Shown here: positions 1-42,850 of the stretch, piece by piece | Layout: every line of letters begins with the position of its first letter | Position numbering within the stretch: the first letter of the stretch is position 1 | Assembly: GCA_025454925.1 (NCBI GenBank) | Contig: JALONM010000053.1 | Location: 1 to 42,850 of the forward strand | Direction of reading: 5' to 3' | DNA length: 42,850 bases | DNA from: Cytophagaceae bacterium | GTDB taxonomy: Bacteria; Bacteroidota; Bacteroidia; Cytophagales; Cytophagaceae | Made by a program: the position numbers and the translations under genes | Notes under the pieces: generated by a model | Seen by the model: the letters and a program-made list of their open reading frames with translations, nothing else | Told to the model about the DNA's origin: nothing | Databases searched by the model: none

Positions 1-302
1 AAGGGAACGGCATACCTGCTTTTGATTTTTACTAGTATCAACGATGCGAAGGCCAGCATACTGGAAAGAAAATCTCCGTGGGCTACCATGCCTTTGATGT
101 GAAGAGGAAAGTCTTCATCCACCTGGCCGGGCATATACAAGGATAACGGCAAATAGCGAAACACATGGATGATGAGTAAAACCGCCAGGATCGGAAATTT
201 TGATTGCTTGCTAAGGCGAGGTGTTACATACCAATGCGCCAGTAGGAAAAAAATGATACCGCTAAAGGTGCATTGAAGGGCAAGTACTACGAGTGGATCC
301 AT
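1..302 (-). CDS. Membrane protein of unknown function, 3' part outside window
   Basis: An open minus-strand frame starts with ATG at 302 and runs off the window edge, giving 100 visible residues. It begins MDPLVVLALQ and has about three hydrophobic segments (roughly residues 5-23, 38-58 and 78-92), separated by short charged loops such as TPRLSKQSK and PGQVDED. This is the pattern of a small polytopic inner-membrane protein. I do not recognise the family. The absence of stops over 100 codons and the membrane-like segments support it as real. It is divergent from the GH16 gene, with a 540-base gene-free stretch between them. Confidence 0.6.
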   Translation of the reverse strand, partial: MDPLVVLALQCTFSGIIFFLLAHWYVTPRLSKQSKFPILAVLLIIHVFRYLPLSLYMPGQVDEDFPLHIKGMVAHGDFLSSMLAFASLILVKIKSRYAVP

Positions 303-844
303 AATTAAAAGGAATGTTTAGAAAGTGAGCTGTGGTATTTAGGATTCAATGTTGTTTTCATGATGATGGATCAAAATTAGCCAGGCATCCCCCCTTTCTT
401 CGGAACATCCGGTTCAAAAACAAGGATATTTGGTTCATGGAAATCGACCTTGGAGGTTGACGAAAAAAATTCCAGCCCGGATAGAGCGAAAAGCCCACGG
501 CACGCCAATAATACTATGGCTATGCCTTTGGCGTGGCCTTGCAGCGATAGCCGGATTAGCTGGCCAAAACATTTTACCCATCGAGAAAAAGCGACTCGGG
601 CATAACATGGCTCTCACTGCACCCTTTCCTTTGAAGTCAATATTTCTTTCTTGAAGCCGCGCTTAAATTGTTTCTTAAACAGTAAATCGAACCTTCAAAA
701 ACAGTTAAAACGATTACAGTCAATAACTTGTACGTGTCTCACAAGAGTAATAAACCACCTCACTAAAAGAGTCTATGGCATAATTAAAAGAAAAAGATAC
801 TATAAATATTTGTTTAAATAATTTCACTTTAATACCATACCTGT
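303..844. other. Gene-free stretch holding a dispersed repeat
   Basis: No convincing gene lies here. Short open frames on both strands around 430-654 overlap a hairpin repeat and look accidental. The part from about 660 to 844 is AT-rich and should hold the promoter of the GH16 gene. I could not find a clean TTTG / TAnnTTTG promoter in it. Confidence 0.6.
479..552 (-). repeat. Dispersed hairpin repeat, family 1, copy a
   Basis: Read on the minus strand, this has box A GGCTATCGCTGCAAG (plus positions 538-552), a hairpin whose arms are CACGCCAA (501-508) and TTGGCGTG (528-535), then box B GGGCTTTTCGCTCTATCC (479-496). The same order, with nearly identical boxes but a different hairpin, recurs at 8753-8812 and 21732-21796. 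It lies between divergent genes. Confidence 0.8.
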
Positions 845-2506
845 ATGAGGAATGGTTGGGGAATTGCAGCAATGATTATTGGATGCCTGGGCGGGGCTTG
901 GGCACAATGCGGTGGCACGTTGATATGGTCTGACGAGTTTAACGGCACCAGTTTGAATACCTCCAACTGGACGTACGACAATCTGACTATAGAGGTACGG
1001 GCCGAAAATATGGGGGGGCGTAGTTTTACCTCCGGAAAAATTCATACCAATGGAAAATTCAGCCAAACCTATGGCCGCTTCGAAGCCAGTGTTCGCTTAT
1101 CCAATGGTGCTGGCCTTTGGCCTGCTTTCTGGATGCTTCCTACGGTAAATAACTGGCCTACTACCGGAGAAATAGACATTCTGGAGTTTAGAGGAGATAT
1201 GTTGAACAGGGTTTCGGGCACCTTGCATTACGGCAATCCCTGGCCTCAAAATCAAAACGATGGTTCCGACTATTACCACCCTGTGAATGATTTACATACA
1301 ACGTTCCATACCTACGCGGTGGAATGGGAGCCAGGCGAGATACGCTGGTATTTCGATAACATTCGTTACAAAACAGAAACACAAACTCCCAATACGCTAA
1401 ATCCACCAAGTAACAATGCCAACACCTGGCCATGGACTACCCCCTATTACATCATTTTAAACCAAGCGGTAGGTGGATGGTTTACCGGTGTTACCGTACC
1501 TGCCAATGTCATCATTAATAAAGGTACTATTGAATTTGATTATGTGCGTGTGTACGACATGACGCCTTCGGCAGGTACCCAGGCACCTTACTTCGGAACA
1601 CCTTCGACCCTACCGGGTACCATACAGGCGGAAAACTTTGACCGCGGCTGTGCCGATGCGGCTTACGCAGACCAGGAACTTGCCAATCAGGGAGGACAAT
1701 ACCGGCAGGAAGAGGTAGATATTGAAACGTGCAGCGATGCCGGTGGAGGTTACAATGTTGGGTACATCAATGCCAACGAATGGTTGGAATATACGGTGAA
1801 TGCCACTTCGGGAGGTTTATACAACATCGATTTCAGGGTTGCGGCCCAAACGGCAGGTGGAAGAATTCGAATGGAAATAGATGGAATTAGCATGGGAACG
1901 GTAAATATACCTGCCACGGGTGGCTGGCAAAACTGGCAAACCGTAACCTTGAGCAGTGTTTCCATAGGGGCAGGAAACCACTTAGTCCGGATGTTTTTTG
2001 AAGCCGGCAATTTTAACTTCAATTCTTTTGGCACCAGTCTGGTGACGCTAAGCAACGATTGGTTGATAGCGGAGCTCCATGCACAAACGCTTACCTGGAT
2101 GAGCAGCGAAACCGGACTTTTTCAATTGCAAATGCTGGAGCATGGCTCCTGGAAAACCGTTGCCACTGTCGAGGCTCAAGATCAACATCAACAAGTGTAC
2201 TATTGGGAACAGCAACCTTCGCTGCCTATCCGCATTGTTCAAATAATGGCAGAAGGCAACACCATATTTTCCAACATTCTTTTACCCGCCGAAAAGCAGT
2301 GGTATGCCAGCCCTAATCCTTGCCGGGATATACTCGTCGTACAAGGAGCAGAACAGGAGCTGGAATGGACCACCCTGCTGGGTGTGAGCGTGGAAGTACC
2401 CTACATCCAACAGGGGGAAGTACGCAGCTACACCACCAGCAAATTGGCTCCCGGGGTGTATATACTAAGCTCGGCCGATCACACCATGCGCGTACTTAAA
2501 GAATGA
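845..2506 (+). CDS. Secreted GH16 beta-glucanase (laminarinase-like) with CBM6 and T9SS tail
   Basis: This is probably an extracellular endo-beta-1,3-glucanase. Residues 1-20 form a signal peptide. The GH16 domain spans about 23-240 and carries the catalytic signature GEIDILEF: E109 nucleophile, D111, E114 acid/base. A CBM6 carbohydrate-binding module spans about 258-395 (start IQAENFD), followed by a beta-rich Fn3-like segment (about 405-480). A T9SS type A sorting domain spans 484-553, with YASPNP and PGVYIL motifs. The module order is typical of Bacteroidota laminarinases. Oddity: after NWTYD the sequence jumps straight to NLTIEVRAENMGG. The usual GH16 segment of about 25-30 residues in between (with its W-G-N-N-E-L-Q type motif) is missing, so activity is uncertain. 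The ATG start is chosen because it opens the signal peptide. Confidence 0.93.
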   Translation: MRNGWGIAAMIIGCLGGAWAQCGGTLIWSDEFNGTSLNTSNWTYDNLTIEVRAENMGGRSFTSGKIHTNGKFSQTYGRFEASVRLSNGAGLWPAFWMLPTVNNWPTTGEIDILEFRGDMLNRVSGTLHYGNPWPQNQNDGSDYYHPVNDLHTTFHTYAVEWEPGEIRWYFDNIRYKTETQTPNTLNPPSNNANTWPWTTPYYIILNQAVGGWFTGVTVPANVIINKGTIEFDYVRVYDMTPSAGTQAPYFGTPSTLPGTIQAENFDRGCADAAYADQELANQGGQYRQEEVDIETCSDAGGGYNVGYINANEWLEYTVNATSGGLYNIDFRVAAQTAGGRIRMEIDGISMGTVNIPATGGWQNWQTVTLSSVSIGAGNHLVRMFFEAGNFNFNSFGTSLVTLSNDWLIAELHAQTLTWMSSETGLFQLQMLEHGSWKTVATVEAQDQHQQVYYWEQQPSLPIRIVQIMAEGNTIFSNILLPAEKQWYASPNPCRDILVVQGAEQELEWTTLLGVSVEVPYIQQGEVRSYTTSKLAPGVYILSSADHTMRVLKE

Positions 2507-6436: not shown

Positions 6437-7135
6437 ATGAGTTCCTCCTTTCCGTATCATTTATTCCAATTACACTCGAGCCAGCTTATCAACCAATCCT
6501 ATCAGTTCCGGAAGTTCATTGAGGAGAAAGGGGTAATACGTCTGTTTAAACGCAAGCAAGTATTGTACGAAGAAGGTACGGCTTGCCAAGGCATACATTT
6601 TGTAAAATCAGGACTCGTCAAAAAAAGTAAGCTCATCCATCAACGCGAGCATGTATTGTTCATAGGAACCAAAGGCGACTTACTAGGCTATCACGCGCTT
6701 ATTGGTAACCATCAGCATTACGAATCAGTGCTTGCCCTCGAGACAACACAAACAATGTTTGTGTCGAACGAACAATTTATGGAATGCATGAAGAAAGACA
6801 TCAGCATTCATAAATTACTTACACAAACCGTTTGTCAGGATTTTCAGGTAAGCATCAACTTTCTTATTTATCACAATCAATGGAATGCCAAGCAGCGTCT
6901 GGCATTTTATCTGCTTTTGCTGGAGCGCAAATTCCAAAACGAGGCGCAAGCCGAAACCGCCATCACCCTTACGCGCAGCGACCTTAGCTCTATGATCGGA
7001 GTTGCGACCGAAAGCCTGGTGCGCTTGCTGCAAGAGTTTAAAGCCTTAAATGTGATCGAAATTGATGGAAGAATTATCTGGATTAAAAACAAAGATTATT
7101 TACTCGAACAACTATTCAAGCTAACACACCCCTAA
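6437..7135 (+). CDS. Crp/Fnr-family transcriptional regulator (1)
   Basis: A 232-residue regulator with an N-terminal cyclic-nucleotide-binding-like beta-roll (about residues 32-115), a dimer helix (about 125-160), and a C-terminal winged helix-turn-helix (about 165-218). The recognition helix aligns with FNR: GVATESLVRLL has Glu192 and Arg196 at the positions of FNR Glu209 and Arg213, residues that read TTGAT. A perfect TTGAT-N4-ATCAA lies upstream, which suggests autoregulation. No N-terminal cysteine cluster is present (only Cys50 in the beta-roll and scattered others), so it is not an iron-sulfur oxygen sensor of the E. coli FNR type. The effector is unknown. Confidence 0.9.
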   Translation: MSSSFPYHLFQLHSSQLINQSYQFRKFIEEKGVIRLFKRKQVLYEEGTACQGIHFVKSGLVKKSKLIHQREHVLFIGTKGDLLGYHALIGNHQHYESVLALETTQTMFVSNEQFMECMKKDISIHKLLTQTVCQDFQVSINFLIYHNQWNAKQRLAFYLLLLERKFQNEAQAETAITLTRSDLSSMIGVATESLVRLLQEFKALNVIEIDGRIIWIKNKDYLLEQLFKLTHP

Positions 7136-7278
7136 GGATACGAATTACCTGCTTCACTCCATTCATTTTCACTTAGCCTCCACCTCATTTTCCTTCTACC
7201 GCGCTGCCCCCGACTTGAATACGCTCTACTGTTTGAGGAATACGTATATTGCAGCATGGTACAAATTTTTCGTCAGCA

Positions 7279-7923
7279 ATGAGTAAGACAAATTCCGAAT
7301 TACATACATTTAAATCTTCCGAATTCTTTCATCAACTGCAATCCTCAGGAAGTACCAAAGAATTCAAGGAGGGCAGTATCCTGCTGGATGAAAGCGCCAA
7401 CATTCACCTTTTACCTATAGTATTGAAAGGACTGATCAAAGTTTTGCGCACCGATGAAGACGGACGCGAAATTTTACTCTACTACATTCAACCGGGAGAA
7501 AGCTGCATCATGTCTTTCCTGGGCGGCATACATCAGGAAAAAAGTAAAATTCGGGCAGTCGCCGAAGAATCCTGCGAACTGCTGCTAATCCACATAGATA
7601 GAGTAAAAGAGCTCCTTAAAGAACATCCTCAATGGTTGGATTATATTTTCCGTTTATACCACAAGCGCTTTGAAGAATTACTGGAAGTGGTAAATGCAGT
7701 AGCATTTAAAAAAATGGATGAACGATTGCTCGAAACCATACGAAAAAAATGCCGCATGAATCAAATTCATACCATATATATGACCCATGAGCAATTGGCC
7801 AGCGAAATGGGGACCTCCCGAGTGGTGGTTTCCAGACTGCTTAAACAGCTCGAAGACAGCGGCTACCTCCAACTGGCACGCAACAAAATCAGCTTGATCA
7901 ACAATGATATAAATCATCTTTAA
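7279..7923 (+). CDS. Crp/Fnr-family transcriptional regulator (2)
   Basis: A 214-residue regulator with a beta-roll sensor domain (about residues 25-110, including DEDGREILLYYIQPGE), a dimer helix, and a winged helix-turn-helix (about 165-207, MTHEQLASEMGTSRVVVSRLLKQL with a natural break). The recognition helix has Arg181 and Arg186 but Val where FNR has Glu209, so it should read a different site from the regulator at 6437. The ATG at 7279 is preferred over the in-frame TTG at 7249. It sits directly before the DUF2892-rhodanese pair, a frequent Bacteroidota arrangement, and a Crp/Fnr-type operator lies just after its stop codon. A redox or sulfur/nitrosative stress role is inferred from context. 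Confidence 0.9.
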   Translation: MSKTNSELHTFKSSEFFHQLQSSGSTKEFKEGSILLDESANIHLLPIVLKGLIKVLRTDEDGREILLYYIQPGESCIMSFLGGIHQEKSKIRAVAEESCELLLIHIDRVKELLKEHPQWLDYIFRLYHKRFEELLEVVNAVAFKKMDERLLETIRKKCRMNQIHTIYMTHEQLASEMGTSRVVVSRLLKQLEDSGYLQLARNKISLINNDINHL

Positions 7924-21796: not shown

Positions 21797-21829
21797 CTCA
21801 CGCATAACCAACCATGTGTTTTAAACAGA

Positions 21830-22002
21830 ATTTCTCCAAAGAAAATCTTCTATTGAGAAATCTCAACTAAATCAAGGGCTTGCAAAGAAATCGACCAGAA
21901 GAAATTCTTTTTGAAGCCCATGATTTTAGTAGTAGGGATTCCGAATCTACAATCCCTGAAAATCGCTACCGTGCGGCTTCGCTTTTAGGAGAAAAGCTGT
22001 TT
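21830..22002 (+). repeat. Dispersed multi-hairpin repeat, family 2, copy B
   Basis: Hairpin 1 is 21830-21861 (TTTCTC...GAGAAA arms). Hairpin 2 has AAATCAAGGGCTT (21869-21881) pairing with AAGCCCATGATTT (21914-21926). Hairpin 3 has AGGGATT (21934-21940) pairing with AATCCCT (21951-21957). The tail is CTTCGCTTTTAGGAGAAAAGC. Same order as the copy at 34719-34893, with several arm changes that keep pairing. Confidence 0.72.
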
Positions 22003-22088
22003 AGATGGCTGCCATGCGTGTGAAGTATAGAAGCATTCAGGAGAATGTTACGTTAAATGAGAATCTTTTGGAAGCCTATTATTTTCTA

Positions 22089-34705: not shown

Positions 34706-34718
34706 ATGTTAACCCCAA

Positions 34719-34893
34719 TTTTTCAATAGAAATTCTTCTATTGAAAAACGATTAACAAAATCAGGGGCTTCCGAACGAATAGAACAAAAAATTCTTTTCG
34801 AAGCACCTGATTTTCCAATTCGGGATACCGGCCATGGATCTACGATCCATGCGCTTTCTCAATACTTCGCTTTTATGGAGAAACGCCGGTCTA
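34719..34893 (+). repeat. Dispersed multi-hairpin repeat, family 2, copy A (fullest)
   Basis: Four hairpins in a row. H1: TTTTTCAATAGAA-ATTC-TTCTATTGAAAAA (34719-34748, 13-bp perfect). H2: AAAATCAGGGGCTTC (34757-34771) with GAAGCACCTGATTTT (34800-34814), one mismatch. H3: CATGGATC-TAC-GATCCATG (34833-34851). H4: TTTCTC (34855-34860) with GAGAAA (34878-34883). Ends near GCCGGTCT. Used here as the reference for copies at 3182, 15586 and 21830. Confidence 0.8.
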
Positions 34894-34907
34894 AAATCGA
34901 GGTATTT

Positions 34908-40920: not shown

Positions 40921-42850
40921 TCACTCTTTACTAATCTTGCGAACCCAGGGGATTCCTCCTTCATCATACACCCACACGATGTACATGCCGGAAGCAAAGT
41001 AACGCATGTCCAACTCAACGCTTCCTTCAAAACTGCCCTGCGCCACTTCTATTCCATTCGATTGATACAACCGATACTTACTCCGTCCACTTTTGTTGGA
41101 TAGCAATAAGCAGGTAGATTGTGTTGGATTAGGATACAACTGATACGACTCTTGATTTGACACAGCTCTGATTTCAGAATACAACATCGTTCCTTTGGTC
41201 TCCTGATATATTATCCGGTAATAGACGGTACCTTGCCGTGCACCGGCATCTATATAATAATACTGACTCCCTGCACCTGTTAAGGTATTTTCTTCCAAAG
41301 AATCAAGGGCGTAAAATAAAGTTCCATCATCACTGCGTTGAATGATAAAACGCCCCCTTCCCGATTCGGATGCGAGCGACCAATCCAACCGCACTTGTTC
41401 TCCTTGCGGACGTGCTGTAAAATTCAACAGATGGCTGGGGAGTGCAGTAAAACACCATTTATAGGTGATGGTAGTATCTTCGGGAAGAAACCAGGTTCTA
41501 CCGTCTGTAAATTGTACCATGCGCGCAGGATCACCGGGGGGATTATACAATACATAATGGCGACAATCTTCCTTATCAAATACTCCATACGAAGAATAGT
41601 TGGCCAGGACCGAGCTGTTTACATGCCCCAGGCTGTCGAGCGCATGGATCCAATGATAAAAATGCGCCGGAGGTAAATCGTTGTGCGTATCCAAACCAGG
41701 ATCGTCCCAAACCACACCGGAAACAACGGGGCCATTGTAGGTAAACCGGTAAGGAAAGTTACCAAAACTTTCGTATCGGTTAATCACCTGGTCGGCTTGA
41801 AAGGTAGCGCGCCAGGCAAGGATCACATCCTGCCAGGCTTGTTCTTCCGATACCGCTGGATTGGCGTAATATGCGCGCATATCTTGTTTGAGTTCTTCAT
41901 ACAATTCGTTGGCATACACAGTATCGTGGGCCAGGTACAACAAATGCGCATTCATGAGTGAAATATTGATTCCCAGGCCATGTTCGGGCCTTGTGCCAAA
42001 CCATGTCCACTTTCCATGCGAAGCCCCGTCTACATTCCAGATATGCTTAGCCGTAAAGGAAGGCGGGAAATTGGTATTTTCTACATCGTACCAATACTCT
42101 TTGGTCGTTTCAACTTCTGTAAGAAATAAGTAAACGCCAAGATCTCTGATTTCCGTTTGATGAGTGTTCAGGCCCCATTGAAAAACTGCCGCCGCAAAAT
42201 TAATCGCCTCCGAACTCGACTCCTGGCCTGCTCCGCCCACCCGGGCGGAGGTTCCTCCGGCATGCGAATGTCCTAAAAACGGACTATGAAATCGGAGGAA
42301 TGGAAATTGTGTGTCACTACGATCCCAGTTATTTATTCCCCGGATTAAAAAATTAACCATGCCTCCCCATTGGCCCTGCTGTGCCCATACCGGGTCAAAC
42401 TTTGCAATGGTAGCGGCCCCCCGGAGTATGTAACCAACTGAAAAATGAAAATCATTCAACAATTGCGGACCTAATATTCCGTTGTACGGCGTTAAGGTAT
42501 GCCACTGTGCATTGTAGTACAAATGCCTGCCATTGCTGCCAGCCAATGGATTTTTCAGCCATAAAAATTTATTCTTCGCCAGCGTATGACCTGCGGCATC
42601 CGCAAGTTCTGTGAGCAAAGCCAGTTTGGCGATTTGCTTTCCTCCGATGTAATTATCTCCGGATGTAACATATTTCACTACCTGACGCTGATCCTCCAGG
42701 TACTGGTAAAGCTGCGGAAAATTTCCGGTAAGTGGCAAGGCTGGCAACAACCCTACATGCGGCAATTCTATTTGGAACGAATCAGTATCGGCACATTTTA
42801 AAAGGCCTCTCGGAACATTAAACTGATGTCCATTCAAGGCTTGTGTGCTA
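40921..42850 (-). CDS. GH81 endo-beta-1,3-glucanase with T9SS tail, 5' end outside window
   Basis: At least 642 residues are visible and the frame is still open at the window edge, so the signal peptide is not seen. GH81 signatures: SGDNYIGGKQIAKLALL, FDPVWAQQGQWGGMVNFLIR, the catalytic region GHSHAGGTSARVGGAGQESS followed by SEAINFAAAVFQWG (glutamates of QESSSE), and WTWFGTRPEHGLGI. After the barrel comes an Fn3-like segment and a T9SS sorting domain of about 75 residues (YQLYPNPTQSTCLLL, ASGMYIVWV). It cleaves beta-1,3-glucans such as laminarin. It is convergent with the GH5-like gene and complements the GH16 enzyme at 845. Confidence 0.95.
   Translation of the reverse strand, partial: STQALNGHQFNVPRGLLKCADTDSFQIELPHVGLLPALPLTGNFPQLYQYLEDQRQVVKYVTSGDNYIGGKQIAKLALLTELADAAGHTLAKNKFLWLKNPLAGSNGRHLYYNAQWHTLTPYNGILGPQLLNDFHFSVGYILRGAATIAKFDPVWAQQGQWGGMVNFLIRGINNWDRSDTQFPFLRFHSPFLGHSHAGGTSARVGGAGQESSSEAINFAAAVFQWGLNTHQTEIRDLGVYLFLTEVETTKEYWYDVENTNFPPSFTAKHIWNVDGASHGKWTWFGTRPEHGLGINISLMNAHLLYLAHDTVYANELYEELKQDMRAYYANPAVSEEQAWQDVILAWRATFQADQVINRYESFGNFPYRFTYNGPVVSGVVWDDPGLDTHNDLPPAHFYHWIHALDSLGHVNSSVLANYSSYGVFDKEDCRHYVLYNPPGDPARMVQFTDGRTWFLPEDTTITYKWCFTALPSHLLNFTARPQGEQVRLDWSLASESGRGRFIIQRSDDGTLFYALDSLEENTLTGAGSQYYYIDAGARQGTVYYRIIYQETKGTMLYSEIRAVSNQESYQLYPNPTQSTCLLLSNKSGRSKYRLYQSNGIEVAQGSFEGSVELDMRYFASGMYIVWVYDEGGIPWVRKISKE

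Follow-up and report, generated by a model that had tools for sequence, protein, structure and literature searches.

An apparent in-frame deletion in a GH16 gene is very probably an assembly artefact at the edge of a 99-base node

We examined an apparent in-frame deletion in a GH16 gene near the start of the window, which is the whole 42,850-nucleotide stretch of DNA that was analysed and is one entire contig (C39) of a 4.52-Mb assembly in 135 contigs. We are highly confident that this deletion is an artefact of assembly. Loss of bases during assembly had been one of two explanations raised in a preliminary description of this DNA, and we found strong support for it: contig ends in this assembly overlap by 99 bases, the junction of the apparent deletion coincides with the edge of a 99-base node, and a second gene carries a loss of similar size at a second node.

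A gap in the GH16 domain

The gene and its landmarks are as follows.

845–2506, + strand: GH16 open reading frame (ORF) of 553 amino acids, with a hydrophobic N-terminal stretch, a GH16 domain, a CBM6/CBM35-like domain and a weak sorting-like C-terminal tail
979–980, + strand: junction, placed by alignment with relative ORFs, with a shortfall of about 31–34 codons (99 bp if the loss is exactly one k-mer)
1169–1186, + strand: GH16 motif EIDILE, intact in sequence and translation
1706–2029, + strand: CBM6/CBM35-like module (Pfam, residues 288–395)

Pfam searches placed the ORF within GH16 (PF00722, Glyco_hydro_16, 79.8 bits against a curated cut-off of 22) and also returned PF03422 (89.2 bits) and PF18099 (82 bits), both above cut-off; NCBIfam profiles gave matches below their curated cut-offs only. 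The hydrophobic N-terminal stretch was judged by eye to be a signal peptide. Residues 490–547 (window 2312–2485) showed a weak likeness to the Por secretion sorting domain (Por_Secre_tail, 14.3 bits, below the cut-off of 27). EIDILE fits the pattern E-x-D-x-x-E, which we take to be the GH16 catalytic motif, and both this motif and the reading frame are intact, as first described.

In GH16 structures, a segment with a WGNNEL-type motif lines the substrate cleft. After the N-terminal W-x-Y, the assembled sequence has no such segment before the next strand; instead, the NWTYD codons (965–979) run directly into NLTIE(V) from position 980, and the frame stays open across the junction. We attribute this absence to the assembly. 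A competing explanation is a real deletion of the segment in the organism itself, with the resulting GH16 protein altered or inactive but retaining its catalytic motif. The open frame and the otherwise normal-looking domain, EIDILE included, are compatible with such a deletion, as is the presence in the genome of nine other GH16 domains that pass the Pfam threshold (10 of 11 rows did so, this ORF among them), which could make one copy dispensable.

We compared the ORF with 131 relative ORFs from three sources: 58 related genomes together with its own genome (30 loci kept), its own genome searched by family, and named genome records (the best 80 of 587 loci). Some of these ORFs come from its own genome and a few genes are present twice (for example, L040 is L053). 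Across this set, with the best 80 of 587 loci included, a tryptophan aligned to W42 in 130 of the 131 ORFs, all 130 alignable relatives carried 22–37 extra residues between W42 and L47, and none shared the gap; L051 was the sole ORF that did not align at the gap region. Among the nine closest rows from the same set (best 80 of 587 loci included), seven had 31 extra residues and two had 34 (L040 and L053, one gene). An example from a close relative, L062, is TGDGCPNLCGWGNSELEYYTNSNQNTYLSNG. A limited literature search turned up no GH16 protein described as having such a gap.

These alignments bear out the gap at NWTYD that the preliminary description had noted. Its junction lay at the correct site, although the coordinates given (979–983) were slightly off for NWTYD, and its size of 25–30 residues for the deletion-like gap was a little low against the 31–34 indicated by the closest relatives. 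The altered or inactive enzyme that it had also proposed gained no support, as the same gap occurred in none of the 130 relatives that could be aligned.

The junction coincides with the edge of a 99-base node

We compared 131 of the 270 contig ends (four ends with N were left out of the count) and found 11 end-to-end overlapping pairs, every one of which overlapped by exactly 99 bases:

C1/C111, C3/C85, C3/C71, C10/C94, C15/C48 and C101/C102: 99 bases each
C104/C86, C110/C65, C39/C95, C34/C52 and C50/C67: 99 bases each

Three 400-base 'overlaps' were rejected as runs of N in C12, and the ends of C13, C69, C25 and C118 have 97 bases in common but on the same side, so that they are not overlaps. 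The window contributes three features.

1–880, + strand: diverged version of the end of C102, interpreted, by analogy with contigs C7 and C78 (below), as an allele of this locus
881–979, + strand: assembly-graph node of 99 bases that matches the final 99 bases of C102 (4418–4516) exactly, with the first upstream mismatch at window position 880
42752–42850, + strand: final 99 bases of C39, which match C95:1–99 exactly (end overlap of 99)

Because all 11 overlaps are 99 bases long, positions 881–979 behave as a graph node, at whose edge the gap begins. The identity at the far end of the window indicates that C95 is probably the next contig after C39. C95 bears another GH16 domain at 6916–7434.

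Contig C102 (4,516 bp) terminates on the base equal to window position 979, so the junction falls on the boundary of a node exactly 99 bases long (the k length) that another contig end shares. For a real deletion, this match to the base would be due to chance only; by our rough estimate, a deletion would fall on the node edge about a percent of the time in an ORF this long with a few bases' slack. A search of the window found no direct repeats at least 60 bases long.

Upstream of the junction, the genome has one further copy of residues 1–45 of the ORF, right at the end of C102. Window 1–979 and C102:3555–4516 are 83% identical, rising to 90% over the first 300 bases. An ORF at window 3–302 (− strand) is cut by the contig start and has a longer version of 161 amino acids at C102:3371–3856 (− strand). 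The modest overall identity and the second copy of residues 1–45 could indicate two real paralogues, with the 5′ end of an intact copy on C102, a deleted copy on C39 and positions 881–979 common to both. However, we found no continuation of the C102 gene copy on any other contig of the genome, and a shared run of exactly 99 bases would again be a matter of chance. A parallel pair of contigs, described next, argues in the same direction, and we regard the existence of two such paralogues as extremely improbable.

Similar losses at other nodes

We surveyed 115 of the 270 contig ends (40, 37 and 34, plus both ends of C39 and C102) for nodes in the interior of other contigs. Ends that read as N (C12 at both ends, C22 and C30 at their starts) were excluded, as was the end of C120 except for 9 bases (16S rRNA-like by eye). 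The survey scored 40 of 356, 347 and 328 candidates, so that our count of interior nodes is a minimum. At least four contig ends match the interior of another contig over an exact run of 99 bases, at nodes in C39, C78, C5 and C126. Besides the node in the window, these are:

C78:228–326: node of 99 bases shared with the start of C7, with the junction between 326 and 327
C5:143027–143125: node that also forms the start of C109, within a dispersed repeat
C126:12296–12394: node shared with the end of C115, at the 3′ end of yidC (named by eye)

A loss of about one node length was seen at three of the four interior nodes found (C39, C78 and C5), and thus recurred at two nodes beyond the window, whereas C126 had none. 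Several shorter exact runs were not counted as nodes: C51 in C75 (90 bases, tandem repeats), C38 in C9 (90) and C25 (70), C57 in C79 (78), C109 in C19 (84), the start of C4 in C131 (81), and the end of C4 in C5 (78), C10 (94) and C94 (77). The start of C4 in C5:102949–103014 was also rejected, as it has no exact run from the first base.

The closest parallel lies in a TonB-dependent-receptor-like gene (named by eye), of which C7 holds the N-terminal part and C78 the remainder. C78:1–326 duplicates the end of the gene part on C7 at 94% identity, and the C78 reading frame is open across the junction. The homologue in relatives splits in two matches near residues 108/109, with first pieces that start at residue 2 and stop between 109 and 139 and second pieces that start at 109, 111 or 114. 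In the alignment, 31–36 extra residues fell exactly after the C78 node in all 18 homologue rows (13 genes, from four relative genomes plus one paralogue in the same genome), with 34 in the four closest genes. An unrelated gene thus shows a loss of similar size at a similar place, which counts against a real deletion in the GH16 gene. C7 and C78 seem to make up the two halves of a single receptor gene, so that the repeated head has the look of an allele; this is at odds with real paralogues in the GH16 case. From this reading we infer, by analogy, that the end of C102 and window 1–880 are strain variants or alleles of one locus.

At the C5 node, a copy of the repeat is without its 5′ arm of about 90 bases and is cut exactly at the node edge. 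The arm is present in 14 of 18 repeat rows; the other four are the C5 copy, the start of C109 (which has no upstream sequence), the start of C38 (whose 38 bases are consistent with the 5′ arm) and L008, which lacks the usual arm because of a different arrangement. The truncated C5 repeat could be natural. Copies of this dispersed repeat of about 190 bp (AACCCTAATTTTTCAATAGAAATTCTTCTATTG...GCCGGTT) occur at window 34711–34896 and 21829–22003, at L009:2055–2247 and in many contigs, and several contig ends lie inside it; no Rfam family matched the window at gathering thresholds. At the C126 node, no residues were lost, with the yidC tails of all 29 relative loci falling within −10 to +6 residues.

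We reject a real deletion and an inactive enzyme because the junction coincides with the node edge, a similar loss recurs in C78 and the alignable relatives do not share the gap; we give a deletion in the organism very little credence. It is just as hard to credit that the segment is truly missing and that the GH16 laminarinase fold tolerates a loss of about 33 residues, yielding a binding-only or re-specialised protein.

A proposed origin of the gap

An assembly artefact could have arisen in the following way. The assembly would be of the de Bruijn type, in which adjacent contigs overlap by 99 bases, and two upstream versions of the locus (C102 and window 1–880) would converge on the single node at 881–979. 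The assembler or scaffolder may then have joined this node directly to the downstream piece, dropping about one node length (about k bases). As 99 bp corresponds to 33 codons, the frame would be kept, and a normal GH16 laminarinase-like gene would mimic one with an in-frame deletion. That exactly 99 bases were lost, and which assembler step was responsible, we infer from this pattern. Judged by homology, the GH16 gene is missing 93–102 bp (from the nine closest rows) and the receptor gene 93–108 bp, and both ranges include 99.

Some observations run against the artefact. An intact frame is expected only one-third of the time for a loss of random length, although it is explained if the loss was 99 bases (33 × 3), and the node at the end of yidC in C126 shows no loss. 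In the nearest GH16 relatives, the extra stretch is 31 residues (93 bp) long, not 33, so that a loss of exactly 99 bp requires a length difference of two residues; for the receptor gene, the nearest relatives have 34 extra residues against the 33 that correspond to 99 bp.

We therefore see no good sign of an unusual enzyme, and a false lead is removed. When k is a multiple of three, an assembly that drops one k-mer at a join will show a clean in-frame deletion, k/3 residues long, that resembles the work of evolution. Since two protein genes in this genome (GH16 and receptor) carry such gaps, surveys of draft genomes for deletions or inactive enzymes should check contig-end overlaps first.

Comparison with known systems

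In the relevant passages of Chen et al. (2020; PMC7111523), scaffold ends from IDBA-UD and metaSPAdes are described as often sharing perfect overlaps of n and n−1, where n is the largest k-mer size, and local assembly errors at joins in short-read metagenome assemblies as leading to wrong protein-coding genes. This assembly resembles these cases in its probable errors at joins and its perfect overlaps of about the largest k-mer. It differs in its apparent loss of about one k-mer where variants merge, which does not appear in those passages, and a limited literature search found no report of a k-length loss at joins.

Among the loci compared (best 80 of 587), the closest homologue found was L062 (JAHEZM010000003.1), from the metagenome-assembled genome 'Flavobacteriales bacterium isolate nzgw151'. 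It is 62% identical to the ORF across the core downstream of the gap and has a similar N-terminal CxGxLIWxDEF, but unlike the ORF it has 31 more residues at the junction, CGWGNSELEYY among them. The closest solved structures by sequence are PDB 3atg, 3iln and 2hyk, which are named as a glucanase, a beta-1,3-glucanase and a laminarinase. The ORF resembles GH16 laminarinases and endo-beta-1,3-glucanases in its above-threshold GH16 domain, its intact EIDILE and the CBM6-like module that follows, and departs from GH16 laminarinases in that, as assembled, it is without the segment of about 31–34 residues bearing the WGNNEL-type motif. Judged from its sequence, the underlying gene most likely encodes an ordinary laminarinase-like enzyme of GH16 that carries a CBM6-like module.
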